A program made the position numbers and the translations under genes. 64,000 nt of DNA from assembly GCA_963965975.1 (NCBI GenBank), contig OZ014412.1, forward strand, positions 7,750,708 to 7,814,707. Reading direction: 5' to 3'. Shown in pieces: positions 6,505-30,740 of the stretch (within the stretch, counting starts at the first letter, position 1; each line of letters starts with the position of its first letter). Source of the stretch: Xestospongia bergquistia (lineage: Eukaryota; Porifera; Demospongiae; Haplosclerida; Petrosiidae). The notes beneath the pieces are model-generated. The model worked only from the letters and a program-made list of their open reading frames with translations. It did not search any database and was not told the origin of the DNA.

Positions 6505-7158
6505 ATGGAGCTTTCCACTTGTTTATTGCTTACATTTGTTATTGATATCCTCGTTGTTGATGCTCAAGAGTTAAGTTTACTGCTTCTTGTGGTAACTCTC
6601 AATTAACAACATCTACTGATAACAAGAGTTGTCAAGCTATCAACGACAAATTTGACAAACTGCTTTTGTTTTTAGCTAATGATGACAAATCTTCTATCTC
6701 TGTGAGTAATTGTACACGATATGTGTTAAAAGATTATCTACTAGCACAGAAGATTGAGTCTCTTTCTCGAAGACCTCCTCCATCATATATTCCTGGATAG
6801 TCCATCAGGTTACTATACCATAGCTACCAGTAATGGAGACACAACTACTGTCTATTGTCATATGGAGGAGTTATGTAAGAGTGGAGGAGCTTGGACTAGG
6901 GTTGCTTACCTCAGTATGTCTTTTCCAACACACCAGTACCCTCCTGGGTTTAGATTATATACATCTAATGGTGTAAGAGCTTGTGGTAGATCTTCTGGTA
7001 CTACTGGTGGATGTCAGGCTCAGGTTTACTTCTCTCCTCCTATCAAAGGATATAAGGAAGTGTGTGGTAAAGTTATTGGTTACCAATATTACAGTACTGA
7101 TGCTTTTTTTAGCCAAGCAGGACGTACAATTGATAGTTATTATGTGGATAGTGTTAGT
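6505..7158 (+). pseudogene. Broken fibrinogen-like secreted protein
   Basis: Starts at the conserved MELSTC signal peptide. A one-base deletion near 6571 (GAGTTAAGT where intact copies have GAGTTTAAGT) shifts the frame. A second lesion near 6797 removes about 36 bases between SYIPG and SPSGYYT and brings a TAG into the N-terminal frame. The fibrinogen-like part stays open (frame 6754-7173) through GYQYYSTDAF and YYVDS. Homology then stops at about 7158, where the ~100-bp repeat begins, so the last third of the domain is missing. It is a clear pseudogene, although the downstream open frame could still be transcribed. Confidence 0.88.
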
Positions 7159-7164
7159 CGTTCG

Positions 7165-7690
7165 CAAAACTAAGTAGTACAGGTCACTAACTTTAGAGTT
7201 TAATCAATTAAAAAGACTGGTGTTCAAATTAAGTAGTATACATTAACAACCTTAAGAGTTCAATCTGGTGTTCCAAGGCAAAAATAACAACCAAGCTATA
7301 CAAATGACCAGCTGTTCCATGCCATTCACATGTATACATATAGGTACATGTACTACAAAAATACTATGACCTCTCTATTTAAATCATTTAACAAATATTC
7401 CATGCCAGTCTGATTCAAGTGTGTACTTGTATTGTTTTATCAGATGTTTCAAGCTATTCAAATCATTCACATGTATATTTTGTCAATAGACTGCTGTTAA
7501 AACTAAGTAATATAGGTCACCAACCTTACAATCTTATCAGATGTTTCAAGCCATTAAATTGTTCATGTGTGAAATTTGGTCAATAGACTACTGTCAAAAC
7601 TAAGTAGTATAGGTCACCAACTTTAGAGTCTTATCAGGTGTTCTAAATCATTCATGTGTACTTGATTGAAAGACTACTATTAAAACTAAG
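7165..7690 (+). repeat. Degenerate ~100-bp tandem repeats (block B)
   Basis: Same family as block A (TAAGTAGTATAGGTCACCAA, TTATCAGGTGTTC, ATTCACATGTATATTTTGTC). Bases 7270-7440 also match 11230-11450. The block directly replaces the 3' end of the preceding pseudogene. Confidence 0.8.
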
Positions 7691-7767
7691 TATTACCTTA
7701 TTGTAAAGTTCACTATTAGGTAAATACCTTCACATGCTTGGTTTAAATGTAATTATTAAAGGAATCG

Positions 7768-7775
7768 TATAAATA
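7768..7775 (+). promoter_or_regulatory. TATA box of fibrinogen-like gene 1
   Basis: TATAAATA, 130 bp upstream of ATG 7898, with the same sequence and spacing as 6375-6382. The block 7689-7898 repeats 6296-6505 with only a few differences (offset 1393). Confidence 0.55.
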
Positions 7776-7897
7776 CTGAGAAGGATCTTTATTTTTATGT
7801 ATTCATTACCACAAGTCATACCTTAATCCTTGGCTAACTTAAGGTGAAACCAGAACAGGTGCATTGGGGAAGTTGTTTTGTACTTCAATCAGTTAGT

Positions 7898-8911
7898 ATG
7901 GAACTTTCAACTTGTCTGTTGCTTGCATTCATTATTGATATCTTCGTTGTTGATGCTCAAGAGTTTAAGTTTACTGCTTCTTGTGGTAACTCTCAATTAA
8001 CAACATCTACTGATAACAAGAGTTGTCAAGCTCTCAATAATAAGATCGACAAGCTGCTTTTGTCTCTAGCTAAGGATGACAAGTCTTCTCTCTCTCTGAG
8101 TAATTGTACACAACCTGCTCCTTCATATATTCCTGGGTGTTGTGCAGATATTATATATTATTGGCCTCATAGTCCATCAGGTTACTATACCATAGCTACC
8201 AGTAATGGAGACACAACTACTGTCTATTGTCATATGGAGGAGTTATGTAAGAGTAAAGGACCTTGGACTAGGATTGCTTACCTCAATATGTCTGATCCAA
8301 CTCACCAATGTCCTCCTAGGTTCGGGTTGTATACCTCTAATGGTGTAAGAGCTTGTGGTAGACCTTCTGGTACTACTGGTGGATGTCAGGCTCAGATTTA
8401 TTTCTCTCCTCCTAGTAAAGGGTATAAGGAAGTGTGTGGTAAAGTGATTGGTTACCAATATTACACTACAGATGCTTTTTACCATTCAGGACATACAATT
8501 GATAGTTATTATGTTGATGGTGTTAGTCTAACATATGGTACATCTCCTCGTAAACATATCTGGACATTTGCTGCTGGTTTATTTGATAATGTTCCTTCTC
8601 CATATAACTGTCCATGTTCTTCTGGCAGTCCTCAGCATGTTCCTTCATTTGTTGGTAATGACTACTTCTGTGAATCTGGTAACTCTGACTCAACCTGGAC
8701 AAAGAAACTTTACACTAGTGATCCATTATGGGATGGAAATGGATGTGGATCTCTTGAACAAGATTGTTGTAGCACTTCTGGTCTACCTTGGTTTCATAAA
8801 GTTCTCACATCATCAAGTACTGAGGCTTTGGAGATGCGTATTTGTGCTACTAATGGTAATAATGATAATGAAGATATTTCAATTGCGTTTTATGAGATTT
8901 TTGTCAAATGA
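7898..8911 (+). CDS. Secreted fibrinogen-like protein 1 (short-linker class)
   Basis: Intronless, 337 residues. An in-frame Met lies 18 codons upstream (7844), but 7898 is chosen because MELST with a signal peptide is shared by the paralogues. After the signal comes a conserved N-terminal block (FTASCGNSQLTTSTDNKSCQ, then a helical LNNKIDKLLLSLAKDD), a short linker, and a fibrinogen/intelectin-like region from SYIPGCCADI: SGYYTIATSNGD, VYCHMEELC, GPWTRIAYLNM, VCGKVIGYQY, YYVDGVSLTYG, HIWTFAAG, DYFCESG, DPLWDGNGC, LPWFHKVL, MRICATNG. Many Cys are conserved. It lacks the SVLKDYLLAQKIESL segment of the long class. Likely an extracellular lectin-like or recognition protein. The fold is inferred from the YCxM and WTR motifs; the ligand is unknown. 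Confidence 0.9.
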   Translation: MELSTCLLLAFIIDIFVVDAQEFKFTASCGNSQLTTSTDNKSCQALNNKIDKLLLSLAKDDKSSLSLSNCTQPAPSYIPGCCADIIYYWPHSPSGYYTIATSNGDTTTVYCHMEELCKSKGPWTRIAYLNMSDPTHQCPPRFGLYTSNGVRACGRPSGTTGGCQAQIYFSPPSKGYKEVCGKVIGYQYYTTDAFYHSGHTIDSYYVDGVSLTYGTSPRKHIWTFAAGLFDNVPSPYNCPCSSGSPQHVPSFVGNDYFCESGNSDSTWTKKLYTSDPLWDGNGCGSLEQDCCSTSGLPWFHKVLTSSSTEALEMRICATNGNNDNEDISIAFYEIFVK

Positions 8912-9395
8912 ATACCTCTACTGTATGAGTGATGAATGAATTATTACAATGTATTTTCACACTTGATCATAGTGGACAGAGTGAAGCTTTATATAATTAA
9001 ATAATTTTTGTCCTGTATTTCCCAACTTTAATTTTATAATTTGTGTGTAAACTTTAAACATATTAAAATTTGATTGTGGCACTCACAAGTGTTTTTCAAA
9101 TATAATATCATAATACATATCTTGTTAAGTAATTGTATGCATATGTATACTATGCAGATACAGATGTTCAATGACGTAGTTTAGTTATATACACTTTATA
9201 AATTTGGTTAGCAATACACTTTAGTGAACTTTCTAGTATTGACAATAATTTTACTAAAGAAGCTTGTTGTGGTCATAGAAAAGGAATTACTATAATTTGC
9301 TTATTAAGCTGTCTAGCTTTATTGTCATTAAATGAATGATCAACTAGCCATATTAATTAAAAGACAATCGAGTTCATTAACACTTCAGTTCATTA
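8912..9395. other. Intergenic, fibrinogen-like array
   Basis: AT-rich spacer between gene 1 and the next pseudogene. No coding signal is seen. Confidence 0.5.
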
Positions 9396-9775
9396 ATGGA
9401 ACTCTCTGGTTGTCTATTTCTAGCAAACCTATTCATTAGCTTGTTTTTGTTGATGCTCAATAGTTTGGGTATACTGTAACATAAATTAATAACATGTACT
9501 GACAACGAGAGTTGTCAAGGTCTTAATAACAAGTTTGATAATTTGTTTATTTCACTAGCTTAGGATTACAAGCCATCTTTCTTTATCTGTGTTCAAAGAT
9601 TATCTTCTAGCACAAGGACTGAGTCTCTCTCTTGATGATCTGGATATTGTGGGTCATGTGCAGACATTAAGCTAGTGATCTCTTGAACAAGATTGTTGCA
9701 GTGCTTCTGGTCTATTGTGGTTTCATAAAGTTCTCACATCATCAATGTGTCTTTGTGATAATATATAGTGATCTT
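9396..9775 (+). pseudogene. Internally deleted fibrinogen-like copy
   Basis: The ATG and MELSGCLFLA-like signal are recognisable, followed by decayed N-terminal sequence (TGTACTGACAACGAGAGTTG, GTGTTCAAAGATTATCTTCT) with stops and frameshifts. At about 9670 the sequence jumps from GCAGACATTAAG straight to CTAGTGATCTCTTGAACAAG. This removes most of the fibrinogen-like domain and keeps only LEQDCCSASG and the following WFHKVLTSS-like stretch. Clearly non-functional. Confidence 0.85.
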
Positions 9776-10012
9776 ATCAGTTGTTGTTAAGTAAAGATTT
9801 TTGTTTATGAGTGACGATTTACATATATTAATTATTTAGTCATAGCTTAAGAGTTAGACTTAAAATTCTTGTCTTGTTTTTCCTAACTTTTGAGTATACT
9901 TTGTTTATGAAATATTTAATTTTGATGTCCTTCAACACAAAAACATAACTTATTAGCAGATGTCAAAATATTATTTTACATAACACTTCTTAATAGATAA
10001 ATATAGTAACTA

Positions 10013-10096
10013 TGTACACATTGCTGGCAGCTATGTCTCTTTCTGTTCATCTACTAGTCTTGACAATCTTCATTGGTAACTTCGTTGTTGAATTAT
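10013..10096 (+). pseudogene. Signal-peptide fragment of a fibrinogen-like copy
   Basis: Bases 10013-10096 match the 5' end of the gene at 17516, including the leader ACACATTGCTGGCAGCT and the start ATGTCTCTTTCTGTTCATCT. Homology stops just after the signal peptide. It is a relic of a second founder type (MSLS start). Confidence 0.8.
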
Positions 10097-11229: not shown

Positions 11230-11745
11230 AATATATCACATTTATAAAGCAAATAACAAGCAGGTTATACAAATGACCAACTGTTCCATGCTATTCAAAT
11301 CATTCACATGTGTATATGTCATTACATGTACTATATACAATATTATAAGGCAACAATAACAACCTTATTGTACACCTGACCTCTTTTGTAAATCAATCAT
11401 GGTCTTATCAAATATTCCGTGCCATACAAATCACTGATTCAAGTGTGTACTTGGTCAAAGACTGCTAAGTAGTATAGGTCACCAAATGATTCACATGTAT
11501 ATTTGGTTGAAAGACTGGTTTCAAAACTAAGTAGCAACCTTACTACCTTATCAGATGTTCCAAGCTATTCAAATCATTCACATGTGTTTTTTGTCAATAT
11601 ACTGCTGTTAAAAGTAAATAGTATAGGTCACCAACCTTAGAGTATAATCAGGTGTTCCAAGCTATCCAAATCATTCACACATATATTTGGTCAATAGACT
11701 GCTATTAAAACTGAATAGTAAAGGTTACCAACCTTATTTTAAGGT
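11230..11745 (+). repeat. Degenerate repeats upstream of a pseudogene (block C)
   Basis: Bases 11230-11450 match 7270-7440 (ATACAAATGACCA, TGTTCCATGC). Bases 11460-11740 hold three further ~100-bp units with AGTATAGGTCACCAA and CAGGTGTTCCAAGCTATCCA. Same family as blocks A and B. Confidence 0.75.
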
Positions 11746-11933
11746 TCACTATCAGGGTAAATTCATTCACACACTTCTTTTAAATATAGTCATTAAAAGA
11801 ATCATATAAATACTGAGCAGGATCTTTATTCTTATATTCATTGCCATAACTCATAACTTCATTATTGGTTAATTTGAGGTGAAAGCAAAACAGAGGCATT
11901 GAGGAATTTGTTTTTGTATTTCAATAAGTTGGT

Positions 11934-12779
11934 TTGGAGCTTTCCACTTATTTATTGCTTGCAGTCGTTGTTGATATATTTGTTGTTGATGCTCAAGAGT
12001 TTATGTTTAGTGCTTCTGTGGTAACTCTCAGTTAACAACATCTACTGATAAAAAAAGTTGTCAAACTCTCATTAAGAAGTTTGACAAACTGCTTTTTTCT
12101 CTAGCTAAAGATGATAATTCATCTTTTTCTTTAAGCAACTCTTCACGATGCATGCTAAAGGATTGTCACTAGCACAGAAGATTGAGTCTCTCTTGACGAC
12201 CTCCTCCTTCATATATTCCTGGGTGTTGTGCAGATATTAAATATTATTGGCCTCATTGTCCATCAGGTTACTATACCATAGCTGCAAGTAATGGAGACAC
12301 AACTACTGTCTATTGTCATATGGAGGAGTTATGTAAGAGTAAAGGACCTCGGACTAGGATTGCTTACCTCAATATGTCTGATCCAACTCACCAGTGTCCT
12401 CCTGGTTTAGGTTGTATACTCTATTGGTGTAAGAGCTTGTGGTAGACTTTCTGGTAGTTCTGGTGGATGTCAGGCTCTGGTTTATTTCTCTCCTCCTAGT
12501 AAAGGGTATAAGGAAGTATGTGGTAAAGTGATTGGTTACCAATACTATAGTACAGATGCTTTTTATCACTGTTCAGGACATACAATTGACAGTTATTATG
12601 TTGATGGTGTTAGTCTAACATATGGTACATGTCCTCGTAAACATATCTGGACATTAGCTGTTGGTTCACTTGATAATGTTCCTTCCAAATACAATTGTCC
12701 ATGTTCTTCTGGTAGTCCTCAGCATGTACCTTCATTTGTTGGTAATAACTACTTCTGTTCTGATTATGTTCGTGTTTAG
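11934..12779 (+). pseudogene. Broken fibrinogen-like copy with lost start and truncated end
   Basis: The expected ATG is TTG (11934-11936). The upstream block with TATAAATA at 11805-11812 is conserved. Frameshifts occur in the N-terminal part (GCTTCTGTGGTAACTC lacks one base of the intact copies) and around 12408-12425. The middle is well preserved (GYQYYSTDAFYH, YYVDGVSLTYG, HIWTLAVG). The open frame 12528-12779 ends shortly after NNYFC, so the last ~65 residues are absent. The sequence following the stop (TCATAGCTTAGGAGTTAAAC) resembles that at 9838-9860 after another pseudogene, showing shared 3' flanks. Confidence 0.87.
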
Positions 12780-13757
12780 TCATAGCTTAGGAGTTAAACT
12801 TAATATTAATAAAAACGTTTCTCCTGTTTTTTAACTTTTTGATTATAATATTTTTTAAAAATTTTCAATTTGATGTCCAGCTATACAAATAATAATATGA
12901 CTTATTAGCATATTTCAAATATATTATCACTTGTCAAGTTAATAGATAATTATAGTTAAGTAGTTGTGCATATAGTTATGCTATATAACAAAGCTATTGT
13001 CCAAACAGATGTTTAATGATGTAGTATAATTATGTACACCTCATATATTTAGTTGTCAATTTATTGCTATGAATATTGCAATAAATTATTAAAGGTCATA
13101 ACACTTGTTCTAAACTATGTAATATCAACATTTATGTTGTATTAACTACAGAAAGAAACTTGTTTAACAGTGTTGTAGTTATTAAAAAGAATTTGAGAAT
13201 TTGGTCATTAAATGGACTGTTATATCTGTTGTATTTGTTATAATAGCCTGTTTAAAAAGTTGCACATAGATCATTACCTTTTGTTGTGATTACTATTGTT
13301 AAAAATGTTTTATCCAAAACCAATTCATGGACATTTTCGTTTGCATGTGTCGTTATAAAATTTATTGGATTGTATGAATTCCATAGTAACTACATTAGAC
13401 CAGTATCTTATTTTCCTAAGAATAAACAAAATTGATCATCACAGTTCTAACAATAACTGTAGTACATTAGTTATCAAAACAGTATTATGTTTACTTTTAC
13501 GCAACAAATAATTTTCCTACATGCAATCTGTATATATAACCATATATTTGTAAAATCAACTAATCAATTTTTACTATATATATATATTTAACAATGACAT
13601 AAGATTTATAATCTTAATAATACATTTGTTTTTGTTGTAAAGATTTGTATATATACTGACTGTGTTATTATTCTTACAACACTAAGCATTCTAGCTTCAT
13701 CATACCTTATTGTATGTTGCTAGAATGCAGAACAAGTGAATTAAAGAAGGTGTCAGT
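12780..13757. other. Intergenic region upstream of fibrinogen-like gene 2
   Basis: AT-rich, no gene seen. A TATATATA tract at about 13648 could serve as a TATA element about 110 bp upstream of the next ATG, but this is weak. Confidence 0.45.
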
Positions 13758-14825
13758 ATGGAACTCTCCACTTGTCTAATGGTTACTGTCATTATGAGTA
13801 AATTCTTTGTTGATGCTCAAGAGTTTAAGTTTACTGCTTCTTGTGGTAACTCTCAGTTAACAACATCTACTGATAACAAGAGTTGTCAAGATCTCAATAA
13901 CAAGTTTGACAAACTGCTTTTGTCTCTAGCTAAGGATGATAACTCATCTATCTCTGTAAGCAATGGTACAAGATCTGTGTTAAAAGATTATTTGTTCGCA
14001 CAGAAGATAGAGTCTCTCTGTCAACAACCTCCTCCTTCATATATTCCTGGGTCATGTGCTGATATTCAAGATCACTGGCCTCATAGTCCATCAGGTTACT
14101 ATACCATAGCTACCAGTAATGGAGACACAACTAATGTCTATTGTCATATGGAGGAGTTATGTAAGAGTAAAGGACCTTGGACTAGGATTGCTTACCTCAA
14201 TATGTCTGATCCAACTCACCAGTGTCCTCTTGGGTTTAGGTTGTATATTTCCAATGGCATAAGAGCTTGTGGTAGTCCTTCTGGTAGTTCTGGTGGATGT
14301 CATGCTCATGTTTATTTCTCTCCTCCTAGTAAAGGTTATAAGGAAGTATGTGGTACAATGATTGGTTACCTATATGCCGGTGCAGATGCTTTTTATCACC
14401 ATTCAGGACATACAATTGACAGTTATTATGTTGATGGTGTTAGTTTAACATATGGTTCATGTCCTCGTAAACATATTTGGACATTTGCTGCTGGTATGTA
14501 CGATAATATTGCTGATGACTCCAACTGTCCTTGTTCTTCTGGTAATCCTCAGTCTGTGCCTTCATTTGTTGGTAATGATTACTTCTGTGAGGCTGGTTGT
14601 TCTGAGGCATCCTGGACATATAAACTCTACACTAGTGATCCATTATGGGATGGAGATGGATGTGGATCTCTTGAACAAGATTGTTGTAATGTTTCTGGTC
14701 TACCTTGGTTTCATAAAGTTCTTACATCATCAACTACTGAGGCTTTGGAGATCCGTATTTGTGTTGATGAGGGAGCTAATGCTGAAGATAGTCCAATAGC
14801 CTATTATGAGATTTTTGTGACATGA
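13758..14825 (+). CDS. Secreted fibrinogen-like protein 2 (long-linker class)
   Basis: Intronless, 355 residues, MELSTCLMV signal peptide start. Has the same N-terminal block as gene 1, then the long-class linker SVLKDYLFAQKIESLCQ before PPPSYIPGSCADI. The fibrinogen-like region is intact, with VYCHMEELC, GPWTRIAYLNM, YYVDGVSLTYG, HIWTFAAG, DPLWDGDGC and LPWFHKVL. It is the most divergent intact copy in the variable patches: GYLYAGADAFYHH, MYDNIADDSNCPC, CEAGCSEASWTYK and a RICVDEGANAEDS tail. It ends in EIFVT where the others end in EIFVK. Predicted secreted, lectin-like; ligand unknown. Confidence 0.9.
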   Translation: MELSTCLMVTVIMSKFFVDAQEFKFTASCGNSQLTTSTDNKSCQDLNNKFDKLLLSLAKDDNSSISVSNGTRSVLKDYLFAQKIESLCQQPPPSYIPGSCADIQDHWPHSPSGYYTIATSNGDTTNVYCHMEELCKSKGPWTRIAYLNMSDPTHQCPLGFRLYISNGIRACGSPSGSSGGCHAHVYFSPPSKGYKEVCGTMIGYLYAGADAFYHHSGHTIDSYYVDGVSLTYGSCPRKHIWTFAAGMYDNIADDSNCPCSSGNPQSVPSFVGNDYFCEAGCSEASWTYKLYTSDPLWDGDGCGSLEQDCCNVSGLPWFHKVLTSSTTEALEIRICVDEGANAEDSPIAYYEIFVT

Positions 14826-15203: not shown

Positions 15204-15347
15204 GCACCTCTAATGTGTGCTTGTGGTAGAGTTTCTGGTACTATAAAGTTCAACTACTGAGGCTTTGGAGATGCATATTTGCCCTAGTGGTGGTCCTAAT
15301 AATGATGAAGATAGTCCAATAGCTATTTATAAGATTTCCGGCAAATA
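15204..15347 (+). pseudogene. 3' fragment of a fibrinogen-like copy
   Basis: A short relic joins a CACCTCTAATG...GCTTGTGGTAGA stretch (the RACGR region) directly to ACTACTGAGGCTTTGGAGAT (TEALE) and the last 30 codons, ending in a TAA. The middle of the domain is deleted. Confidence 0.8.
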
Positions 15348-15536
15348 AAAATTTTAGTTTTAAGTGTACAGACTGAAGTATAAATAAAATTGTTAATAAA
15401 TTTGCCCTCAAGTAACACTTTTTCTTATGGATTTATTTGGTTTTGCAGATTGTTCACAATGATATAATTTGATCTTCAAATACAACATTTTTTGAATCAT
15501 TTTTGTCTATAATGTTAATACAAACAAAGTTATAGA

Positions 15537-15664
15537 GATGCACTCTGGGATGGAATGTTCTCAAATCAACTACTGTGGCATTAAAAATACACATTTGTGT
15601 TAGTCTATTGGTGGTTGTTGATGGAGACATTCCGATAATCTCTTATGAGATTATTGTGAAATGA
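15537..15664 (+). pseudogene. Second 3' fragment of a fibrinogen-like copy
   Basis: Starts at CACTCTGGGATGGA (LWDG region), then jumps to TCAACTACTGTGGCATT and a decayed terminal region ending TCTTATGAGATTATTGTGAA TGA, equivalent to SYEIFVK stop. A relic only. Confidence 0.75.
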
Positions 15665-16198: not shown

Positions 16199-16459
16199 AT
16201 GGAGCTCTCCTCTTATCTAATGTTGATTTTTATCAGTAGCTTCTTTGTTGATGCTCAAGAATTTGAATTTACTGCTTCTTGTGGTAAGTCTCAGTTAACA
16301 ACATGTGCTGATAACAAGATTAGCCAAGGTCTCAATGACAAGATTGAAAAATTACTTCCTCATTATCCAAGAATGACAACTCATATCTCTGTAAGCAATG
16401 GTACACAATCTGTGTTAAAAGATTATCTACTAGCACAGAAGATTAAGTCTCTCTGTTGA
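16199..16459 (+). CDS. Truncated fibrinogen-like paralogue (N-terminal part only)
   Basis: Intact 86-codon frame: signal peptide MELSSYLMLIF, the conserved N-terminal block with changes (SCGKSQLTTCADNKISQ, losing one conserved Cys of the NKSCQ motif), an altered helical stretch, and SVLKDYLLAQKIKSLC. A TGA comes exactly where the linker would enter PPPSYIPG, and no fibrinogen-like domain follows. It is most simply a truncated pseudogene. A short secreted product cannot be excluded because the frame is clean. Confidence 0.6.
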   Translation: MELSSYLMLIFISSFFVDAQEFEFTASCGKSQLTTCADNKISQGLNDKIEKLLPHYPRMTTHISVSNGTQSVLKDYLLAQKIKSLC

Positions 16460-17515
16460 CATCAACGATCTTTTTACAATAATTAGTCTATGTTAATGTA
16501 TTTGTATATTCTTACAGTTGTATCTGCATGACTCAATAACTCGCATAATGAATAGTGATTTGTTAACTAAACACTTTTTCAAAGCATGAGCCTGTATTGT
16601 ACATTATGAGTAGTAGAAATGAAGATACATACATAAAGACAAAAAATGTTATTAAACACTCATTATTCAAGACTATTTACAAGAGACAAGGAGTATAGTG
16701 TGTTTTAAGACTAGTCTGCATAATATACGTCATCACTCTTCATCAATTGTGTTTAACTCGTTTGCTTCAAATTTATACATTTTTTGAAATTTATATCAAT
16801 CTTTAATAAAGACTTTTCAAAACAATTTTACTCTTCCTCATAATCAATAAAATATTGCTTTATATGTACATACATGAGGAAAGATTAATAAATACCAAGT
16901 AGTTGTATCCCAGGGTATATTGACAATTAAGAAATTATTATGTTTCAATCACCTTATTTTAATCAGTTATTGCAAACAGTAGTTTTAATACTAAGTTTCT
17001 ATAAATACATTACTTCTTTGTGTCTCATGCAGATATAAATTCATACTTAAATATTTGTTTAGACTGTTACAATTATTTGTTGTTATATATCAGAAATAAT
17101 AGATACAATGTTATGATGACACATCTGAACTAGTCAAGGTTCTCATGTGAACATGTTACAATGGTGCTACAGTTTTGTGCATATGTACTGCATCCATGAC
17201 ACAGTAGATAGTTTTGAACATATCAATTAGTGTGTCCTTAGTGATAAGAGGCACTACTGCATAATATTCTTATTTATTGTGCTTTGCAAGTAGAACAGGC
17301 TCCATCAATTTAGATATTATTAATAGTATGTTATTTAAGTATGTGGTAGGATCACAAATATCAGGAACATCATTTGTATGGACTCTTGTTTAACTTTTCC
17401 CCTCCTTTTTCATAACTGTAAGGCACTATTGTCCTAGCTCATTGTCTTAGCTTGACATTGACTGGGCTATAACAACTTTAGAAGAGAGCAAACAAAGAAC
17501 ACATTACTGGCAGCT
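16460..17515. other. Intergenic region upstream of fibrinogen-like gene 3
   Basis: AT-rich, no gene or repeat recognised. The last ~20 bases (ACACATTACTGGCAGCT) match the leader at 10013. Confidence 0.45.
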
Positions 17516-18589
17516 ATGTCTCTTTCCATTCATCTACTAGTCTTGACAATCTTCATTAGTAGTTTTGTTGTTGATGGTCAAGAGTTTACATTTACTGCTT
17601 CTTGTGGTAACTCTCAATTAACAACATCTACTGATAACAAGAGTTGTCAAGATCTCAATAATAAGATCGACAAGCTGCTTTTGTCTCTAGCTAAGGATGA
17701 TAAGTCTTCTATCTCTGTAAGCAATGGTACACGATCTGTGTTAAAAGATTATCTACTAGCCCAGAAGATTGAGTCCCTCTCTCAAAAACTTCATCATTCA
17801 TATATTCCTGGGTCATGTGCAGATATTAAAGATCATTGGCCTCATAGTCCATCAGGTTACTATACCATAGCTACCAGTAATGGAGACACAACTACTGTCT
17901 ATTGTCATATGGAGGAGTTATGTAAGAGTAAAGGACCTTGGACTAGGATTGCTTACCTCAATATGTCTGATCCAACTCACCAGTGTCCTCCTGGGTTTAG
18001 GTTATATATGTCTAATTGTATAAGAGCTTGTGGTAGACCTTCTGGTACTTCTGGTGGATGTCAGGCTCAGGTTTATTTCTCTCCTCCTAGTAAAGGGTAT
18101 AAGGAAGTGTGTGGTAAAGTGATTGGTTACCAATATTGGGCCCCTGATGCTTTTCTTACCCAATCAGAACGTACAATTGACAGTTATTATGTTGATGGTG
18201 TTAGTTTAACATATGGTTCATGTCCTCGTAAACATATCTGGACATTTGCTGCTGGCCAGTTAGATAATATTGCTTCTATTGCCAACTGTCCATGTTCTTC
18301 TGGTAATCCTCAGTCTGTACCTTCATTTGTTGGTAATGACTATTTCTGTGAGTCTGGTTGTTCTGACTCAAGTGCATCACAGAAACTCTACACTAGTGAT
18401 CCATTATGGGATGGAGATGGATGTGGATCTCTTGAACAAGATTGTTGTAATGCTTCTGGTCTACCTTGGTTTCATAAAGTTCTCACATCATCAACTACTG
18501 AGGCTTTGGAGATACGTATTTGTGCTGATGGTGGTCCTAACAATGATGAAGATATTGCAATAGCTTCTTATGAAATTTTTGTTAAATGA
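17516..18589 (+). CDS. Secreted fibrinogen-like protein 3 (long-linker class)
   Basis: Intronless, 357 residues. It has a different signal peptide from genes 1 and 2 (MSLSIHLLVLTIF), shared only with the relic at 10033. The standard N-terminal block and long linker SVLKDYLLAQKIESL follow, with KLHHSYIPG in place of PPPSYIPG. The fibrinogen-like region is complete. Variable patches read GYQYWAPDAFLTQSERT, QLDNIASIANCPC, CESGCSDSSASQK and RICADGGPNNDED. Predicted extracellular. The 3' half is nearly identical in DNA to gene 5 at 29673, suggesting recent duplication or gene conversion. Confidence 0.9.
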   Translation: MSLSIHLLVLTIFISSFVVDGQEFTFTASCGNSQLTTSTDNKSCQDLNNKIDKLLLSLAKDDKSSISVSNGTRSVLKDYLLAQKIESLSQKLHHSYIPGSCADIKDHWPHSPSGYYTIATSNGDTTTVYCHMEELCKSKGPWTRIAYLNMSDPTHQCPPGFRLYMSNCIRACGRPSGTSGGCQAQVYFSPPSKGYKEVCGKVIGYQYWAPDAFLTQSERTIDSYYVDGVSLTYGSCPRKHIWTFAAGQLDNIASIANCPCSSGNPQSVPSFVGNDYFCESGCSDSSASQKLYTSDPLWDGDGCGSLEQDCCNASGLPWFHKVLTSSTTEALEIRICADGGPNNDEDIAIASYEIFVK

Positions 18590-19571: not shown

Positions 19572-19609
<38 letters not shown>

Positions 19610-20027: not shown

Positions 20028-21044
20028 ATGGGGCTCTCCACATGTCTACTGTTCAGTCTCTTTATTGGTAGCTTCTTTGTTAAAGCTCAAGAGTTTAAGT
20101 TTACTGCTTCTTGTGGTAACTCTCAGTTAACAACATCTACTGATAACAAGAGTTGTCAAGATCTCAATAATAAGATTGACAAGCTGATTTTGTCTCTAGC
20201 TAAGGATGACAAGTCATTTCTCTCTGTGAGTAATAGTACACGACCTCCTCCTTCATATATTCCTGGGTGTTGTGCAGATATTAAATATTATTGGCCTAAT
20301 AGTCCATCAGGTTACTATACCATAGCTACCAGTAATGGAGACACAACTACTGTCTATTGTCATATGGAGGAGTTATGTAAGAGTAAAGGACCTTGGACTA
20401 GGATTGCTTACCTCAACATGTCTGATCCAACACACCATTGTCCTCCTGGGTTTAGATTGTATACCTCTAATTGTGTAAGAGCTTGTGGTAGACCTTCTGG
20501 TACTACTGGTGGATGTCAGGCTCAGGTATATTTCTCTCCTCCTAGCAATGGGTATAAGGAAGTGTGTGGTAAAGTTATTGGTTACCAATATTGGTCCACT
20601 GATGCTTTTTATCATCAATCAGGACATACAATTGACAGTTATTATGTTGATGGTGTTAGTTTAACATATGGTTCATGTCCTCATAAACATATCTGGACAT
20701 TTGCTGCTGGTTTATATGATAATGTTCCTACTCCATATAATTGTCCATGTTCTTCTGGTAGTCCTCAGTCTCTACCGTCATTTGTTGGTAATGACTACTT
20801 CTGTGAATCTGGTAACTCTGACTCAACCTGGACAAAGAAACTTTACACTAGTGATCCATTATGGGATGGAGATGGATGTGGATCTCTTGAACAAGATTGT
20901 TGTAATGCTTCTGGTCTACCTTGGTTTCATAAAGTTCTCACATCATCAACTACTGAGGCTTTGGAGATGCGTATTTGTGGTGCTCAGGGTACTAATGATA
21001 ATGAAGATATTACAATAGCTTCTTATGAAATTTTTGTTAAATGA
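20028..21044 (+). CDS. Secreted fibrinogen-like protein 4 (short-linker class)
   Basis: Intronless, 338 residues, start MGLSTCLLFSLF with a signal peptide. It belongs with gene 1: the LKDYLLAQKIESL segment is absent, the linker reads TRPPPSYIPGCCADI with the doubled Cys, and the patches LYDNVPTPYNCPC and CESGNSDSTWTKK match gene 1. The remaining domain landmarks are intact (VYCHMEELC, GPWTRIAYLNM, HIWTFAAG, DPLWDGDGC, LPWFHKVL, EIFVK end). The doubled Cys could pair differently from the GSC of the long class. Predicted secreted; ligand unknown. Confidence 0.9.
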   Translation: MGLSTCLLFSLFIGSFFVKAQEFKFTASCGNSQLTTSTDNKSCQDLNNKIDKLILSLAKDDKSFLSVSNSTRPPPSYIPGCCADIKYYWPNSPSGYYTIATSNGDTTTVYCHMEELCKSKGPWTRIAYLNMSDPTHHCPPGFRLYTSNCVRACGRPSGTTGGCQAQVYFSPPSNGYKEVCGKVIGYQYWSTDAFYHQSGHTIDSYYVDGVSLTYGSCPHKHIWTFAAGLYDNVPTPYNCPCSSGSPQSLPSFVGNDYFCESGNSDSTWTKKLYTSDPLWDGDGCGSLEQDCCNASGLPWFHKVLTSSTTEALEMRICGAQGTNDNEDITIASYEIFVK

Positions 21045-21287
21045 GTGTAATGAGTTTCTTGTTCTTTTGAGAACATACACTACAAAGTGAACTTGTTTGT
21101 GTTGTAGTTTAGAAATATTTTTGTCTTTTGTTAAATTTTAGATTAGTTTTAAATCCCATGCTCGTATTAACAAAAATTGGTTCTTAAATTAAAGCAATGG
21201 CACAGAGTTTACAAGTACATAAGAACATTCTCTGAAGATTGATGTGACATAGATAGAGATGATATAATAAAATGAGGAACTGTTTAT

Positions 21288-21335
21288 ATTCCTCTAGTAA
21301 TCCTCAGTTTGTACTCCCACTTGTTAGTAATGACT
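21288..21335 (+). pseudogene. Tiny fibrinogen-like relic
   Basis: TCCTCTAGTAATCCTCAGT and the following CTTGTTAGTAATGACT match the SSGNPQSVPSFVGNDY region of the paralogues. No flanking homology. Confidence 0.55.
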
Positions 21336-21378: not shown

Positions 21379-22145
21379 AACATTTCATTCAGTGATGCTC
21401 TCCCATCTACATACTCATCTCTACAAACACTTCTTATGTTACCACTGACAGAGAATGGAGTAGTAGACTTGGATACCCTTGATCTTCCAAGCAATAACCT
21501 TGATCATAATACTATACAACTGTTACACATACCTCTACTCACATGGATGATAAATCTAACTAAGGATCAAAGAGAGGAGAAAGAACTGAGCACAGTTAAT
21601 ACTCTGTGGAGGCCATTTTCTATCACTTGTCTTCAACAGACTATAGTAGATGGATTGGCTTATGTTATAGCTGGTATAGCTAACACAGGTATGGTATAAT
21701 ACACTGACATACATCACGTTTATGCTATAGTTTTGAGGCCAGACATTCCTTTTCCTTTTCAGAGTGTTCGGCCTCAAGACTTACCCATGAAGTAAAGACA
21801 TTCTTTTAATTATGTCATAGAATACTAAATGTGTACAACTAACAGTATATGCATATTAACTGACTAGATCAGCAATACATTTGATTTTCACCATTCATTT
21901 AAATAGACTAACTAATCAATTCCAATAACATTCTGATCAACTTTTTTCCATTCATTTTTGTTTGTATAGATTCACTTAGTACTAAGGCACAAGTTATTGA
22001 GTTATTAAAGAACTCTACACTAGACAAAATAACTGCCCCAATTCTGACATTAATCACAGTCCAAGATGACACATCTCTACTTAAAACTCCAATCTTACAT
22101 CATAATGATGCAATTACTACTATTGCAAATTTGCAACCACAATAA
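21379..22145 (+). CDS. Two-exon gene remnant or 3' end of an unrecognised gene
   Basis: Exon 21379-21688 follows an acceptor (TTTACTCTATAG). It is open for 103 codons, including LPLTENGVVDLDTLDLPSNN and HIPLLTWMINLTKDQREEK. It ends ACAG/GTATGG in phase 1. Exon 21970-22145 follows TTTGTATAG and continues in frame (DSLSTKAQVIELLKNSTLDK, LITVQDDTSLLKT) to TAA at 22143. Correct phase and clean frames on both sides argue for real coding descent. No start Met or upstream exon is seen, and fibrinogen-like relic sequence lies just before. Product not recognised; it could be the tail of a gene displaced by the array. Confidence 0.45.
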
Positions 22146-22432
22146 ACAGGTTCATAATTTATTAGTATCAATTACTATAATAATACATATCATATCACAT
22201 ATATATATATTATATTATGGTTGTTTGATTAGCTAAATAATTGCAATATCTAGTTAATAGATATACTCTGATTGTATGTGAAGACAACAATTAATGTATG
22301 CTTTTTAATTTAACATTTAACTAATTTGATTTAAACATCAATTGCCATGAATTACAAAGTAAATTAACTTCAAAATCATACAGAAATTACATATACGAAT
22401 AATTAAATTCATACGAAGTATATACATTGGTC

Positions 22433-25400
22433 TTATAAAGGATTGTCCAGACCATTACACACAAATGCTCCCCAGTAAAACATTGATTTTCCTGCTGCCT
22501 TCATTACTTGCTTGGCATAGTTAATAGCTTCAGAAGGTCGACAATGAGGAGTATTTACAAAATGATCATAGAAATAAGAAACAAATTCAGCTGTTTCACT
22601 ATCAGTTACTGTCCATAATGTAGCAATAACAGTGTCAGCACCAGCTGCTCGGACTGCTTGTGTAAAACTGCTGGGCATCTCTTGAGTGGGTCTGGAGCCA
22701 ACTGAAGAATTACAGGTTGAAATGAAGACGAGCCGAGTGTTATCAAGTTGCATACCACAGGCAGCTACAGCATTCATGTGACCAGTTCCAGCTTTTGGAT
22801 CCATCTTACTATAGTGTTTATTTCTAAATGTGCTAGCACCAGCTAGGAGTATCCCACTTGAGTTGTCAGTCCAAAAGTTTCCCTTGTATCGAACACTAAC
22901 TTGCTTTCCTGAATATCCATGAGTAGCTATATGAAGAACAAATGGAGATTGAAGATCAAGCAATTTTGATATTGTTGCTTCTGAGCCCACAATTGGTTCT
23001 TCAACTTCAAGCTTATCATTCATTGATAATAAAAGATGTACATTTTCAGCTTCTTTCTGTGATGCAACTAAGTCAGTGATCACATCATCAGCTGGTGTAC
23101 TGAGGCCAAGAAGAGAATCAAGAGAATTCAATAACGATTTGAAACTAAAAGAAAAACCTGTTTCTGACTCTAATGGTAGCTCGAGCTTGAAGTTAGGGTT
23201 TGCAATTATATAACACTTAAGTTTGTCACAAATAGATTCTGCCTCCTTGTCATTTTGAGGCAAATCAGATTCTTGTATTTGTTGGTCTTTTGGTGAAGAG
23301 TGGTCACTACTGCCTTCAGTGCCAGTTCCAGAGGAATATAGTATCTTTTGTAAATGCATAACAGTTGACTTGCGAAGAAGTTCACGAGGTGAGGACAAAA
23401 ATGTAACACTGAAACACTCATGCAATGGTTTTGTAGTCCCATGAGAATCAGTTATCGGTAGTTGATCAATAGGAAAGCAAAGCAGATCAACGTCTGGGCA
23501 GATAAAGAGCCTTTTTACATTTGGTTTAAAAAGATACTCACAGACATTAGGAGGAAAAAGAGCATCAGCTAGATCTTTCATGATTGGATGAACTATGTAA
23601 CTATTCCACAGTTCGTAAATAGCTTTTGGTAACTGTATGAGAAGTTTGTATACTCTTTGATTGTCGATGTGAAACAGGAATGGATCATCTTGTGGTCTGA
23701 TAACTATGCCACAGGCTTGACTCTCTGGAGGATCACGATATTCAGGATTGTAAATGTTGAATGTGTAATCTAAGACAATGTCACTCTCATTCAAGACAGT
23801 TTGGATACCTTCAGATTTCTGTTGATACAAGGCATTGATAACTGGAACAATACATTTCTGCAACAGCTTACTTTCAATTGCTTTAAATTCTTTTATGGGT
23901 GGCTCATTTTTAAGAGTAGGATCTTGAGTTGCATGCTTTTCAAGTGAAAGAAATGCAGATCGGTAAGCGTTTCTCAGACCTACTTGGATGAGGACTGCTC
24001 TTAGTTCAGTAAAGAGACTCTTCCAACGAATGAATGCATCTACAGAATCAACAGGAAATTCATCTTTTAGACAAATTGCTCCACTCAAGACAAATTCCCG
24101 ACTATTAGTAACAGTACCTGGAAGTTCGTCAAGTGAAAGAACACCATTACTCACTACAGTAGCAATCAATGAGAGAAGCATATTTTCTCCATTCTTGAAC
24201 ACTTTCTTGGCATAATCAAATTCTTTAAGCTTTGAAAAGATACCTAACAAAAAGAAATCATACATGTAATAAAAGGATTCTGAAGCTACATTGGTTAAAA
24301 AATGTATATATACATAGATTTCGGTAAGATTTGTTTAGATTCTTTAACTATGTCTTACACAATATGTATATGACATGGTCTCCTTGTCCCTTTGTCTCTT
24401 GCTATATGTTTTGGCTGTGGTATATAATTCTATAAAAGCTCTAACTCTTTGGTTTTCAAAATATTAATATAAACTAAAGTATCACTGGCTATAGTTGGAC
24501 ATATTCTTGTGTAAGTGACTTTTTGGAACAAAATAAATTTTGATTAACATTACATATATAGTTGTTAGTGATCATTAAGAACAAAGTTTTTATCTTAATT
24601 TAAATACCTGTAAGGTAGAGCATATTTTCTGCATCAATAAAGTTGATATTATTTTCTTTCTTTGCGATATCTGTTAAATATTTAGTTGCCATGTCCAATG
24701 CTGCCTCTGGATTGTTATCAATATCCAAAAAAACTAACTCCAGCTCTGACAGACTCCCTTTGAGGTCATAAGATCCAGTAAACTCACTAACAACTTTAGC
24801 ACATATTTCTCGTGAAACTTTCACTGCATGCTGGTAATGTTCTTTAATAATGTCATAGTTCTTGTATGTGGTCGGAAGTTTTATGAGCAGAGAGTCCATT
24901 TTATGGCAGATGACCCTCGTTAGTTCTACTTCTTTCTCTGTCAATGGGGTACCTCTCATGCGATAAATGCTTGGTAATACATTCAGGACAGCTAGGTGTA
25001 AGGCTGTGTAGACAGGATCATCAAAGCACTCACTATCAAACAAACCAAGACAGGCATGTCCTAGGTATTCACCTGTGACGTGACCAGTATAAGCCTGGCA
25101 GAGTACGTTGCAATGAACTAAAATTGTAGTTATAGCCAAGACAATAACAGGATAGATAACTTGTCTTAGAGCAGGATGGAGTTCTTGTTTTAGCCATATT
25201 GTAAGGGCTTTTGTTCTCTGAGAAAGAGTTTCCAGCCCACTATCAAGATCAGTAAATGGAAGAGAATCAAACTGAATAACTGCCGCATCTACCCACTCTT
25301 GAAACAGATTTGATAAAGGTTGTTGGAACTGAGTTAAGACTTCATTAGTAATTTTGGCAGCTCCATTAACAGATGACACCATTTTCTCATGGGACATACT

Positions 25401-25889
25401 GTTTGCATCAGATAAACGTAATACGACAGCATCTATTAAAATATCACAATACTCAGGACAGAAAAGCACACTGTAGTCTGGAATAGCTTCACCAAGTTTC
25501 TCAAGTACCAGTGAATACTTTGATTGCATGAGGGCTTTTCCCGCCTCAAGCCATTGCTTCACTATCTCAACAGCCAAATGCTGATCACAGTGAATAAACC
25601 CAAACAGAGCTACCTCTCTTGCTTCATCATACCTTTGCAGAAGGTTGAGAGCATTTACTTTTCTAAGATAGCCCTTTCCCCATTTTGAGTTCAATTTCAC
25701 ACACTTTTCACCATCACTCAGAGCCAGTTCATACTTACCCAGTCGACAGTATGAAACACTTCTATTACTGTAAGTAATATGGCTTGTTGGCTCGAGTTCT
25801 AGCACCTTACCATACAATTCAACTGCCTCCTCATAATGACCAGCTTTAAACTTTTCGTTCCCCTCTTTTCTCAATAGTTCGCTATCCAT
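22433..25889 (-). CDS. TPR-CHAT protein (caspase-like CHAT protease domain)
   Basis: Two exons: 25889-24608 and 24243-22433, with GT-AG intron 24244-24607 splitting a Gly codon (phase 1), giving 1030 residues. Residues 1-120 are TPR repeats like those of TTC or Hsp-organising co-chaperones (EGNEKFKAGHYEEAVELYGK, YSNRSVSYCRLGKYELAL). A helical middle of ~600 residues follows. The C-terminal ~280 residues are a CHAT domain: catalytic His in FVLHIATHGYSG (about residue 869), Cys in RLVFISTCNSSVG (about 938), then RAAGADTVIATLWTVTD and a final helix WGAFVCNG. CHAT proteins are caspase/separase-like Cys peptidases, often partnered with TPRs in bacteria. Both catalytic residues are present, so it is probably active. 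It is likely cytosolic, as no signal peptide is seen. Substrate unknown. Confidence 0.88.
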
Positions 25890-28169: not shown

Positions 28170-28426
28170 TTTGTTGATTAGCAAAGGAAGTGGGCGTTCC
28201 TTCTCTAGTATTGGGCGTGGTCCGACTACTACACGTGTTATCATGCTTGTATCATGCTTGTATCTTACTTGTACTTTGTCCTCAGTCCAGGCAGGGCTAG
28301 GACTACGTGTTGAATTATAACCATTTTTCGACTTTTATCATGTTGTCTTTAATTAAATGTTTCTGGAGTTAGGAGGTCAACCTTCTGCTGTACATTTCGT
28401 AGTGTTTTTTGATTAAAAGTGATTAT

Positions 28427-28435
28427 GTATATATA

Positions 28436-28483
<48 letters not shown>

Positions 28484-28484
28484 T
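28427..28484. repeat. (TA)n microsatellite
   Basis: Long alternating TA tract, flanked on both sides by TATAATTATATA or TATAATTATGC. Confidence 0.95.
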
Positions 28485-28689
28485 GCATGATTTTGTTTTC
28501 AATGCCAAACTTCATTTTATCGCCAGGCGAATCAAGTTCTATCTGTTATAGTAGATGTTCTGTCTTGGTCTGTTCCAAGTATGTCAGTACAATGTAATAT
28601 TATTGGTTGCCTTTTTGATGATGTCATGCATACAAGTAAAAACATTATATCAGACATTTTGGTGCTAAAACGTATTGTACAACACTGAC

Positions 28690-28845
28690 TCATGGATGTA
28701 CAAGTTTACTGAGTCATCACAAGTTGACTTGAGTCATTACAAGTTTACTGACTTATTGCAAGTTTGTTGAGTTATCACAAGTTGAGTTAAGTCATTATAA
28801 GTTAATCATTACAAGTTTACTGAGTCATTACAAAGTTATTGAGGT
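28690..28845 (+). repeat. Degenerate short tandem repeat
   Basis: About eight units of 15-22 bp with the core GAGTCATTACAAGTTTACT or GAGTTATCACAAGTTGA. Confidence 0.8.
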
Positions 28846-28935
28846 CACGTGTTATGTGTACATATATGCATAATTTAGATGAGTTATTCTTGGGTTGTTC
28901 CTTCAATTAGGTTTGTCATGGGGCCAATATATATC

Positions 28936-28992
28936 CATAAAACCCTCCAATAGACTAAAATTATTAGTACTAGTATATTGGAGGGTTTTATG
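28936..28992. repeat. Perfect 17-bp inverted repeat
   Basis: CATAAAACCCTCCAATA at 28936-28952 is the exact reverse complement of 28976-28992, with a 23-base loop. It could form a hairpin or be the ends of a small non-autonomous element. Confidence 0.9.
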
Positions 28993-29229
28993 TACTAATT
29001 AGTACACGCACACCAGACTGAACTTGTAATATACAGAAAAAATATTCTTTATCACTACACACAAATTTATATTTCAATGCTATGATGTTTAAAGTTTATT
29101 AATATTAAATGGCTCTTGATTTAAGTCAGTGCTGAATGTGAACAAAGCTTTATGTAATTGCATTATTACAGATCGTTTGATAGTTGTCAAGGCCAGAATA
29201 GTACTAGTTTACATTGAAAAATTGGCAAA

Positions 29230-29625
29230 TCTGTTTATAGTTTTGCACTCATTTTCACGATGAGGCTTTTTGTCCTCATTGATTTGGTGAGATATCTTAT
29301 CAAGCATTATTTTAAATAAGCTATGACTATGTAAGAGTGTGGATGTACTATTGTATGGTCATAGACAGTTATTTTAATAGTACTTCCTCTTTTGTAAGGA
29401 AAATTATTCAAACTAATGTCACTCTTGTGTACTTTTGTCACAACTATGAGGCTCCTTTGTCCTCACTGACTTTATAGTCAATGGGATTTTGATAAGCCTA
29501 TTAATGTAACTTCTTTATAAGGACAATTATTCAAACTATAACGTTGTTAGTCTTGCGCACTTATTTACAATTATGAGACTCTTTTGTCCTCAATGACTTT
29601 ATAGTCATCAATGGATTTTGCTGCA
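29230..29625 (+). repeat. Degenerate ~125-bp tandem repeat upstream of fibrinogen-like gene 5
   Basis: Three diverged units built on CAACTATGAGGCTCCTTTGT, CCTCACTGACTTTATAGTCA and AATTATTCAAACTA. The clearest pair is 29395-29490 and 29520-29615. Confidence 0.75.
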
Positions 29626-29672
29626 GGGTGATGCAAGGTAAAGAGCACTATTTTTTACTTTAACCTTTCGTT

Positions 29673-30740
29673 ATGGTTGTCTTCATTTGTCTTCTATTTA
29701 TCTTGATTAGCAGCTTCTTTATTGATGCTCAAGAGTTTAAGTTTATTGCTACTTGTGGTAACTCTCAATTAACAACATCTACTGATAACAAGAGTTGTCA
29801 AGCTATCAACGACAAATTTGACAAACTGCTTTTGTCTCTAGCTAAAGATGATAAGTCATCTATCTCTGTAAGCAATGGTACACGATCTGTGTTAAAAGAC
29901 TATCTACTAGCCCAGAAGATTGAGTCTCTCTCTCAACAACCTCCTCCTTCATATATTCCTGGGTCATGTGCTGATATTAAAGATCATTGGCCTCATAGTC
30001 CATCAGGTTACTATACCGTAGCTACCAGTAATGGAGACACAACTACTGTCTATTGTCATATGGAGGAGTTATGTAAGAGTAAAGGACCTTGGACTAGGAT
30101 TGCTTACCTCAATATGTCTGATCCAACACACCATTGTCCTCCTGGGTTTAGGTTATATATGTCTAATTGTGTAAGAGCTTGTGGTAGACCTTCTGGTACT
30201 ACTGGTGGATGTCAGGCTCAGGTTTACTTCTCTCCTCCTAGTAAAGGTTATAAGGAAGTATGTGGTAAAGTTATTGGTTACCAATATTGGACCACTGATG
30301 CTTTTCATCACCAATCAGGACATACAATTGACAGTTATTATGTTGATGGTGTTAGTTTAACATATGGTTCATGTCCTCGTAAACATATCTGGACATTTTC
30401 GTCTGGTCATTTTGATAATGTTGCTAGTTCTTCCAACTGTCCATGTTCTTCTGGTAGTCCTCAATCTGTACCTTCATTTGTTGGTAATGACTACTTCTGT
30501 GAATCTGGTTGTTCTGATTCAAGTCTGTCACAGAAACTCTACACTAGTGATCCATTATGGGATGGAGATGGATGTGGATCTCTTGAACAAGATTGTTGTA
30601 ATGCTTCTGGTCTACCTTGGTTTCATAAAGTTCTCACATCATCAACTACTGAGGCTTTGGAGATACGTATTTGCGCTGATGGTGGTACTAACAATGACGA
30701 GGACATTCCGATAGCCTCTTATGAGATTTTTGTTAAGTGA
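29673..30740 (+). CDS. Secreted fibrinogen-like protein 5 (long-linker class)
   Basis: Intronless, 355 residues, start MVVFICLLFILISSFF (a third type of signal peptide in the array). It stands apart from the other copies, beyond TM2D3 and the TPR-CHAT gene, but in the same orientation. The N-terminal block reads FIATCGNSQLTT and NKSCQAINDKFDKLL, the latter exactly as in the pseudogene at 6505. It has the long linker SVLKDYLLAQKIESLSQQ and a complete fibrinogen-like region. Variable patches are GYQYWTTDAFHHQSGHT, SSGHFDNVASSSNCPC and CESGCSDSSLSQK. The 3' half matches gene 3 closely. Predicted secreted, lectin-like. Confidence 0.9.
   Translation: MVVFICLLFILISSFFIDAQEFKFIATCGNSQLTTSTDNKSCQAINDKFDKLLLSLAKDDKSSISVSNGTRSVLKDYLLAQKIESLSQQPPPSYIPGSCADIKDHWPHSPSGYYTVATSNGDTTTVYCHMEELCKSKGPWTRIAYLNMSDPTHHCPPGFRLYMSNCVRACGRPSGTTGGCQAQVYFSPPSKGYKEVCGKVIGYQYWTTDAFHHQSGHTIDSYYVDGVSLTYGSCPRKHIWTFSSGHFDNVASSSNCPCSSGSPQSVPSFVGNDYFCESGCSDSSLSQKLYTSDPLWDGDGCGSLEQDCCNASGLPWFHKVLTSSTTEALEIRICADGGTNNDEDIPIASYEIFVK

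Follow-up and report, generated by a model that had tools for sequence, protein, structure and literature searches.

A clustered family of secreted lectin-like genes in the sponge Xestospongia bergquistia, probably diversified in the germline for recognition

A 64-kb stretch of the genome of the sponge Xestospongia bergquistia (contig OZ014412.1, C2:7750708-7814707, hereafter the window) contains an array of intronless genes for secreted proteins, which an earlier note, made from the letters of this DNA, had described as fibrinogen-like and as possible recognition molecules. The array probably represents a germline-diversified set of secreted lectin-like recognition proteins. This reading draws on the architecture of the proteins, on coding sequence shared between genes with different upstream regions, and on codon models fitted to three groups of genes of the family.

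A search of the window for open reading frames (ORFs) retrieved five intact and intronless ORFs of 337, 355, 357, 338, and 355 amino acids (aa), all on the plus strand. Residue numbering follows C' (17516-18589), to which the other four proteins are 81 to 88% identical in the alignment. All five have hydrophobic N termini, with a best 19-aa hydropathy of 1.29 to 2.64 within the first 30 residues, and hydropathy revealed no second hydrophobic stretch or membrane anchor in these five proteins, the maximum elsewhere being 0.60. The intact copies are as follows:

7898 to 8911, plus strand: A', intact, 337 aa, stalk shorter by approximately 19 residues (ORF, alignment)
13758 to 14825, plus strand: B', intact, 355 aa (ORF)
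17516 to 18589, plus strand: C', intact, 357 aa, reference for the numbering (ORF)
20028 to 21044, plus strand: D', intact, 338 aa, short stalk as in A' (ORF, alignment)
29673 to 30740, plus strand: E, intact, 355 aa, flanks matching no other copy at an E value of 1e-6 (ORF, flank comparison)

The proteins are composed of a signal peptide, a stalk of approximately 76 residues (57 in the short form), and a C-terminal domain of 257 residues, with 14 cysteines that are each retained by 90% or more of 21 family sequences. The stalk of C' presents two helices in a predicted model of low confidence. A collagen-like stalk, as in ficolins, was found neither by eye in the aligned stalks, which show no collagen repeat, nor by Pfam. 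The N-terminal features of C' are the following:

17516 to 17578, plus strand: signal peptide, residues 1 to 21 (hydropathy, cleavage site placed by eye)
17579 to 17806, plus strand: stalk, residues 22 to 97, with two cysteines and two of the four NxS/T sites of the protein
17807 to 18028, plus strand: fibrinogen-related, intelectin-like part, residues 98 to 171 (profile matches)

A Pfam scan of 15 family proteins (5 from the window and 10 relatives) gave no match above the cut-off for any of them, including none to an immunoglobulin superfamily (IgSF) domain of the kind that defines fibrinogen-related proteins (FREPs). The Fibrinogen_C (PF00147) cut-off was reached by 0 of the 15, with subthreshold matches of 47 to 62 residues in 5 of them. 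In contrast, the 46-residue GGGWT module of NCBIfam (NF040941) matched all 10 proteins compared with it at an E value of 4.2e-5 or better, 7 of them above the cut-off, so that the domain has the N-terminal YCxM...GGWT module of the fibrinogen-related superfamily. When a profile of the family was compared with solved structures (PDB), intelectins matched best, with an E value of 8.3e-8 over profile positions 118 to 197, followed by a serum lectin (1.9e-6) and, weakly, by fibrinogen, angiopoietin-related, and collagen chains, all over the same first part or the preceding stalk. With a profile of the domain only, intelectin and lectin chains matched over the first 62 to 71 positions with E values from 8.8e-5 to 0.0048, and one further match (E value of 1.6) looked accidental. 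By sequence, the domain therefore holds a short fibrinogen-related domain (FReD) that aligns with vertebrate intelectins. Past residue ~171, the profiles retrieved no intelectin match from the PDB for the remaining ~190 residues, and the C-terminal part of intelectins that carries the calcium and glycan site was not found by sequence.

In hhalign, eight canonical fibrinogen domains of the same genome, taken from VYCDM onward and so without their first ~28 positions, aligned with the family over 15 columns (probability of 40%, E value of 0.00029), the stretch before VYCDM being outside the comparison. A whole-length fibrinogen domain was rejected on this alignment and on the Pfam result. The profile search of the C-terminal region thus upholds the label fibrinogen-like for the first ~70 residues, which match intelectins best, but not for a domain that would reach the PF00147 cut-off. 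Judged by sequence, the domain is an intelectin-type fibrinogen-related module followed by a C-terminal part of its own.

Eight further pieces of the family were identified on the plus strand of the window by tblastn and blastn with the five intact copies and by frame-by-frame reading:

6505 to 7159, plus strand: broken copy with one frameshift, lacking the last third (blast, frame reading)
9396 to 9745, plus strand: broken copy, a 5' part with stops beside a piece of residues ~286 to 307, most of the middle being gone
10033 to 10092, plus strand: fragment, signal-peptide (5') end only (blast, frame reading)
11934 to 12761, plus strand: broken copy Bx, with two frameshifts and two stops relative to the nearest intact protein, lacking the 3' end
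15206 to 15345, plus strand: fragment or fragments from the middle and the 3' end (blast, frame reading)
15554 to 15661, plus strand: fragment from the 3' end (blast, frame reading)
16199 to 16454, plus strand: fragment, 5' quarter (blast, frame reading)
21278 to 21335, plus strand: short fragment, residues ~256 to 277 (blast, frame reading)

The short pieces are unlikely to have arisen by chance, because even the weakest (15206-15243) has a blastn E value of 8.5e-6 against the window alone, and the others are at 7.4e-7 or below. A single decayed copy might account for the pieces at 15206 and 15554.

The array extends beyond the window. Two more intact copies are found upstream, at -12642 and -10095 (negative coordinates are bases before the window start), together with a copy carrying one frameshift (-8600 to -7580) and further fragments, among them a 3' fragment at -6226, which puts the start of the array 12.6 kb before the window. 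The earlier note had counted five intact copies with signal peptides and at least eight broken or fragmentary ones on the plus strand, and both counts hold. The span that it gave (6505 to 30740) should begin further upstream, in view of the intact copies there. Its proposal of birth-and-death evolution also stands, given the broken copies, the block duplication described below, and the state of the nearest other array, on C1 at 23.185 to 23.192 Mb, where 10 kb of sequence holds three copies that are nearly full and two fragments, none of the five being intact.

Relatives of the family, 42 to 60% identical to C' over the matched part, form clusters on C2, C4, C5, C9, and C11, and protein searches of the genome (146.46 Mb in 21 contigs) gave at least 115 and at least 119 matches. 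The motif DPLWDG occurs at 309 sites, 301 of which have the family cysteine in place (DPLWDGxxC), with none for either in the reversed-pattern control, and two other family motifs occur at 84 sites (control, 0) and 105 sites (control, 1). Individual positions were obtained for approximately the first 100 of the 309 and of the 301 sites. Judged by the motif, nearly all of the DPLWDG sites probably belong to the family, which suggests that the genome holds some 300 or more copies or pieces of it. Two loci on C9 (L021, 961887-965867; L022, 972791-976771) are identical across all 3981 fetched bases and lie 10.9 kb apart, as a result of a very recent duplication or of a stretch duplicated in the assembly. 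Pattern scans for relatives outside the animal yielded 9 candidates from bacterial and archaeal genomes and 4 from viral contigs, and tblastn showed none of them to be a relative.

Comparison of 500-bp flanks at a threshold E value of 1e-6 sorted the upstream regions of the array into three classes, class I at -12642, 6505, 7898, and 11934, class II at -10095 and 13758, and class III at -8600 and 17516, while the upstream flanks of 20028 and 29673 match no other copy. Three of these regions belong to intact copies of the window:

7398 to 7897, plus strand: class I upstream region of A', with ~97-bp repeats, resembling those of 6505, 11934, and -12642
13258 to 13757, plus strand: class II upstream region of B', resembling that of the copy at -10095
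17016 to 17515, plus strand: class III upstream region of C', resembling that of the copy at -8600

The order of related genes is identical in the upstream block and in the window block, which indicates block duplication. Tandem repeats of ~97 bp lie in the class I upstream regions (5945-6299, 7437-7671, and 11550-11736) and are possibly promoter repeats or recombination sites. The class boundaries are leaky, with a weak match of 74 bases between -12642 and -10095 and another that joins -8600 to the fragment at 9396. Downstream flanks are more mixed, that of -10095 matching, for example, those of 7898 and 11934 and that of 13758 matching that of -8600; the copy at 20028 and the fragment at -6226 have 3' flanks with 90% identity.

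Coding similarity does not follow these classes. From codon 22 onward, all pairs among nine copies (seven intact and two broken) are 88 to 94% identical, independently of flank class. The copy at 7898 is nearest to that at 20028 (94%), both being short stalked and neither flank matching, and C' is 93% identical to the copy at 29673 (synonymous divergence, dS, of 0.173), with which it shares neither flank, versus 92% to its flank partner at -8600. We infer exchange because the flanks of a pair at a dS of ~0.2 should still align, as they do within the classes. Gene conversion or crossing-over thus seems to have transferred coding sequence between genes whose upstream regions differ. A recombination test of the pairwise homoplasy index (PHI) type gave P values of 0.002 (array), 0.004 (C5 group), and 0.001 (C9 group). 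An exchange that spares the loops was also considered: fourfold sites differ in 46 of 260 pair comparisons in the loops versus 176 of 2265 elsewhere, but this synonymous excess was dropped, as by columns it amounts to 3 of 6 versus 15 of 85 (Fisher P value of 0.09).

For this step of the argument alone, and whatever the function of the proteins, similarity confined to the coding region could instead come from retroposition of mRNA, as the genes are intronless and several pairs share coding sequence with no detectable similarity of the flanks. Retroposition could explain such single pairs but not the flanks shared within classes I, II, and III, whose recurrence in the same gene order upstream and in the window is the mark of duplication at the level of DNA, and we regard it as unlikely.

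Codon models were fitted to the window group (7 genes), the C9/C2-3 Mb group (16 genes), and the C5 group (11 genes); the models and the PHI-type test are our own implementations, with fixed FastTree topologies. The second group covers part of the C9 members and leaves out L022, which duplicates L021 exactly, L027, which has an early stop, and L034, whose frame is partial. The third consists of the 11 of 21 loci (L042 to L062) that passed a filter on length and ending; six others are broken or partial, and L051, L052, L053, and L058, which look intact, were excluded because their last residues differ or their start was chosen elsewhere. Model M2a was favored over M1a in all three groups, with likelihood ratio test (LRT) statistics of 34.7 (domain only) and 28.5 (full length) in the window group, 64.3 in the C9 group, and 37.2 in the C5 group, and M8 over M7 gave 30.8 in the window group. 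Sites with a posterior above 0.8 are 208, 254, and 287 in the domain run of the window group and 16, 208, and 287 in its full-length run; 252 with an adjoining insert, 285, 287, 288, and 289 in the C9 group; and 182, 214, 253, and 255 in the C5 group. Twelve of the 13 domain sites lie in three loops (3/3 in the window group, 6/6 in the C9 group, and 3/4 in the C5 group), which in C' are the following:

18131 to 18175, plus strand: loop 1, residues 206 to 220, selected sites 208 (window group) and 214 (C5 group)
18248 to 18286, plus strand: loop 2, residues 245 to 257, selected sites between 252 and 255
18359 to 18385, plus strand: loop 3, residues 282 to 290, selected sites between 285 and 289

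Loop 2 holds selected sites in all three groups and loops 1 and 3 in two of three each, whereas a fourth variable segment (337-351) holds them in none. According to these models, a few sites in each of the three groups of genes are under positive selection, and most of them lie in loops common to the groups. It is this result that lends support, of an indirect kind, to the recognition role suggested earlier.

Under the reading that we favor, each secreted chain has a signal peptide and a short stalk, through which chains may be joined; the C-terminal domain begins with an intelectin/fibrinogen-type module, as its sequence shows, and continues with ~190 residues of the family's own. Germline variety arises as genes and gene blocks duplicate and many copies break, and as copies with different upstream regions overwrite or recombine their coding sequence, presumably through gene conversion, crossing-over, or both. 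Selection, as the codon models and the alignment show, repeatedly alters a few sites in the same loops and preserves the 14 cysteines and most of the disulfide-rich frame. The loops could then form the face that binds the ligand, which may be a glycan on a microbial or other non-self surface, with different copies binding different surface sugars, and binding might agglutinate or opsonize the target.

Several observations weigh against this reading. Pairwise ratios of nonsynonymous to synonymous divergence (dN/dS) are 0.29 to 0.51 overall, values from which we conclude that the array genes are kept. The ratio pN/pS, pooled over four segments that we drew on the window-group alignment, is 0.70 for the loops versus 0.34 for the rest of the domain, so that the loops as a whole are below 1 and only single sites exceed it. 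Two selected sites lie outside the loops, site 182 in the C5 group and site 16, in the signal peptide, in the window group. The loops were drawn on the window alignment, and it is therefore the C9 and C5 groups that provide an independent test; there, 9 of 10 selected sites fall within loops 1 to 3. Recombination and multibase changes can inflate site tests. Finally, AlphaFold2 models of the five window proteins have a mean predicted local distance difference test (pLDDT) score of 31.2 for the whole proteins and 32.6 for the C-terminal part only, for which reason the arrangement of the loops on one face is unproven.

The low pooled ratios would also suit mucus, matrix, or feeding proteins, held in high copy number for dosage and with loops that drift freely. 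Such a role agrees with the large copy number, the mostly purifying selection, the glycosylation sites, and a relative (L072:51-2675, in C2:7316800-7319800) whose 874-aa ORF places the lectin-like domain after a long N terminus of SSQTDSDTxEN-type repeats, mucin-like by eye. Free drift does not, however, account for single loop sites above the neutral rate in three groups, and we consider this role improbable. Recognition of kin or gametes, in which the loops match self or mates and not microbes, would explain the fast change of the loops and the germline exchange equally well. Known allorecognition systems use few, highly polymorphic loci, and they are a poor fit to a family this large (301 motif sites) of secreted proteins, in which the five members of the window lack a membrane anchor to judge from hydropathy, which leaves this alternative with a rather small probability. 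It is very unlikely that the array merely records neutral birth and death with gene conversion and that the selection signal is an artefact of the clear recombination, of multibase mutation (codons at sites 208 and 287 differ at several bases), or of alignment (the C9 and C5 groups have gaps close to the loops), since the window-group signal persists on a star tree and six random trees, the FastTree tree slightly weakens the case further by fitting the same columns better (log likelihood of -2252.9, against values from -2316.2 to -2346.2 on those seven trees), none of 42 null simulations under M1a, run without recombination and with approximate parameters near the fitted values, reached the observed LRT (largest, 8.6), loop 3 of the window group has no indels, and variability recurs at like positions, with per-site values correlated between groups (rho of 0.37 to 0.43).

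For secreted recognition proteins of a filter feeder, microbial targets seem the likeliest. In sponges given microbial molecules, fibrinogen-domain genes shift their expression, up or down, according to the parts of two reports that describe these genes (PMC6208332, for PF00147 genes; PMC8242945, with the family unnamed), and such shifts would fit microbial targets. A more far-reaching version is possible but doubtful: several hundred secreted lectins would be kept in the germline, coding exons would pass from genes under one promoter to genes under another, so that binding loops and expression programs are reshuffled relative to each other, and each of the separate clusters would vary its binding face through an identical set of three loops, which would make the family an antibody-like, pre-adaptive repertoire based on an intelectin-type module. 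The question bears on how animals without antibodies, and sponges with dense microbial communities especially, distinguish partners from enemies, and the family offers defined loops, defined arrays, and a visible diversifying process for direct tests of binding, individual variation, and response to microbes.

The array is interrupted by two minus-strand ORFs, for a CHAT protein (22433-24265) and a TPR protein (24600-25889). The segment at 22091-22530, at the 3' end of the region of this pair, recurs at -1541 to -1109 (84%), and part of the CHAT/TPR region was therefore probably duplicated with the array. Elsewhere in the window, a clustered minus-strand family of ~850 to 970 aa (1183-3876, 49936-52479, 55307-58186, and 60061-62967) appears by eye to be rich in hydrophobic stretches and reaches no Pfam cut-off, with weak DUF7630 matches in two members; the protein at 60061-62967 looks internally duplicated by eye. 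Two minus-strand ORFs resembling secretin-family seven-transmembrane proteins (PF00002; 49059-49793 and 54439-55167), very alike by eye, each adjoin a member of this membrane-protein family, as if co-duplicated. NmrA-like NAD-binding proteins form a tandem pair on the plus strand (43603-44484 and 46561-47445).

Among known systems, the canonical fibrinogen-C (PF00147) genes of the same genome resemble the family in being clustered, with at least 151 matches, but differ in that only 15 columns can be aligned and none lies in the array among the matches listed. These canonical genes are heavily clustered (C8, C15, and others; L001 to L008), and the stretch before FSxKDxDN varies in length by eye. 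Vertebrate intelectins (X-type lectins) are the best PDB match, over residues ~97 to 171, and differ in the remaining ~190 residues, which have no match here. The FREPs of gastropods are likewise a diversified fibrinogen-related family, for which somatic gene conversion has been invoked (PMC3313920). Unlike FREPs, the sponge proteins have neither an IgSF domain nor a full fibrinogen domain, and their changes are seen within one germline assembly. To our knowledge, the Sp185/333 protein of sea urchins is unrelated to the lectin-like family. Its genes are nevertheless clustered immune genes with segmental duplication and proposed gene conversion, as far as the relevant sections of PMC5103432 go, and a section heading there states that pseudogenes are absent, in contrast to the abundant broken copies here.

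The literature matches listed include no title or abstract opening on such a family in sponges, most subscription journals being outside their scope, and this silence speaks only weakly for novelty. The main text of a review of immune diversification from 2026 uses neither the word sponge nor the word Porifera (PMC13428168).

The closest precedent is found in placozoans. The sections of PMC6321704 on the Trichoplax "intelectins" describe up to 31 mostly secreted proteins in five clusters, most with ten shared cysteines, in which a FReD of up to 70 residues is the sole part that aligns well with vertebrate intelectins and the C-terminal part is alike among the proteins themselves; these genes are expressed in secretory epithelial cells, according to the corresponding part of PMC11452194. 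By description, the basis of this comparison, the sponge family shares with these clusters the signal peptide, the single short FReD, a conserved C terminus of its own, conserved cysteines, and the clustering. Since the outline is shared, the architecture is of a known kind; the earlier statement that no described sponge family of exactly this architecture is known agrees with the literature matches listed, yet the outline itself has this placozoan precedent. The two differ in the stalk, which is present here, in scale (301 motif sites, or ~10 times the up to 31 genes of placozoans), and in the exchange and loop selection, which do not appear in those sections of the placozoan account (PMC6321704). 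The sponge family is thus ordinary in the outline of its architecture, and it is its scale, its exchange, and the selection on its loops that are notable.

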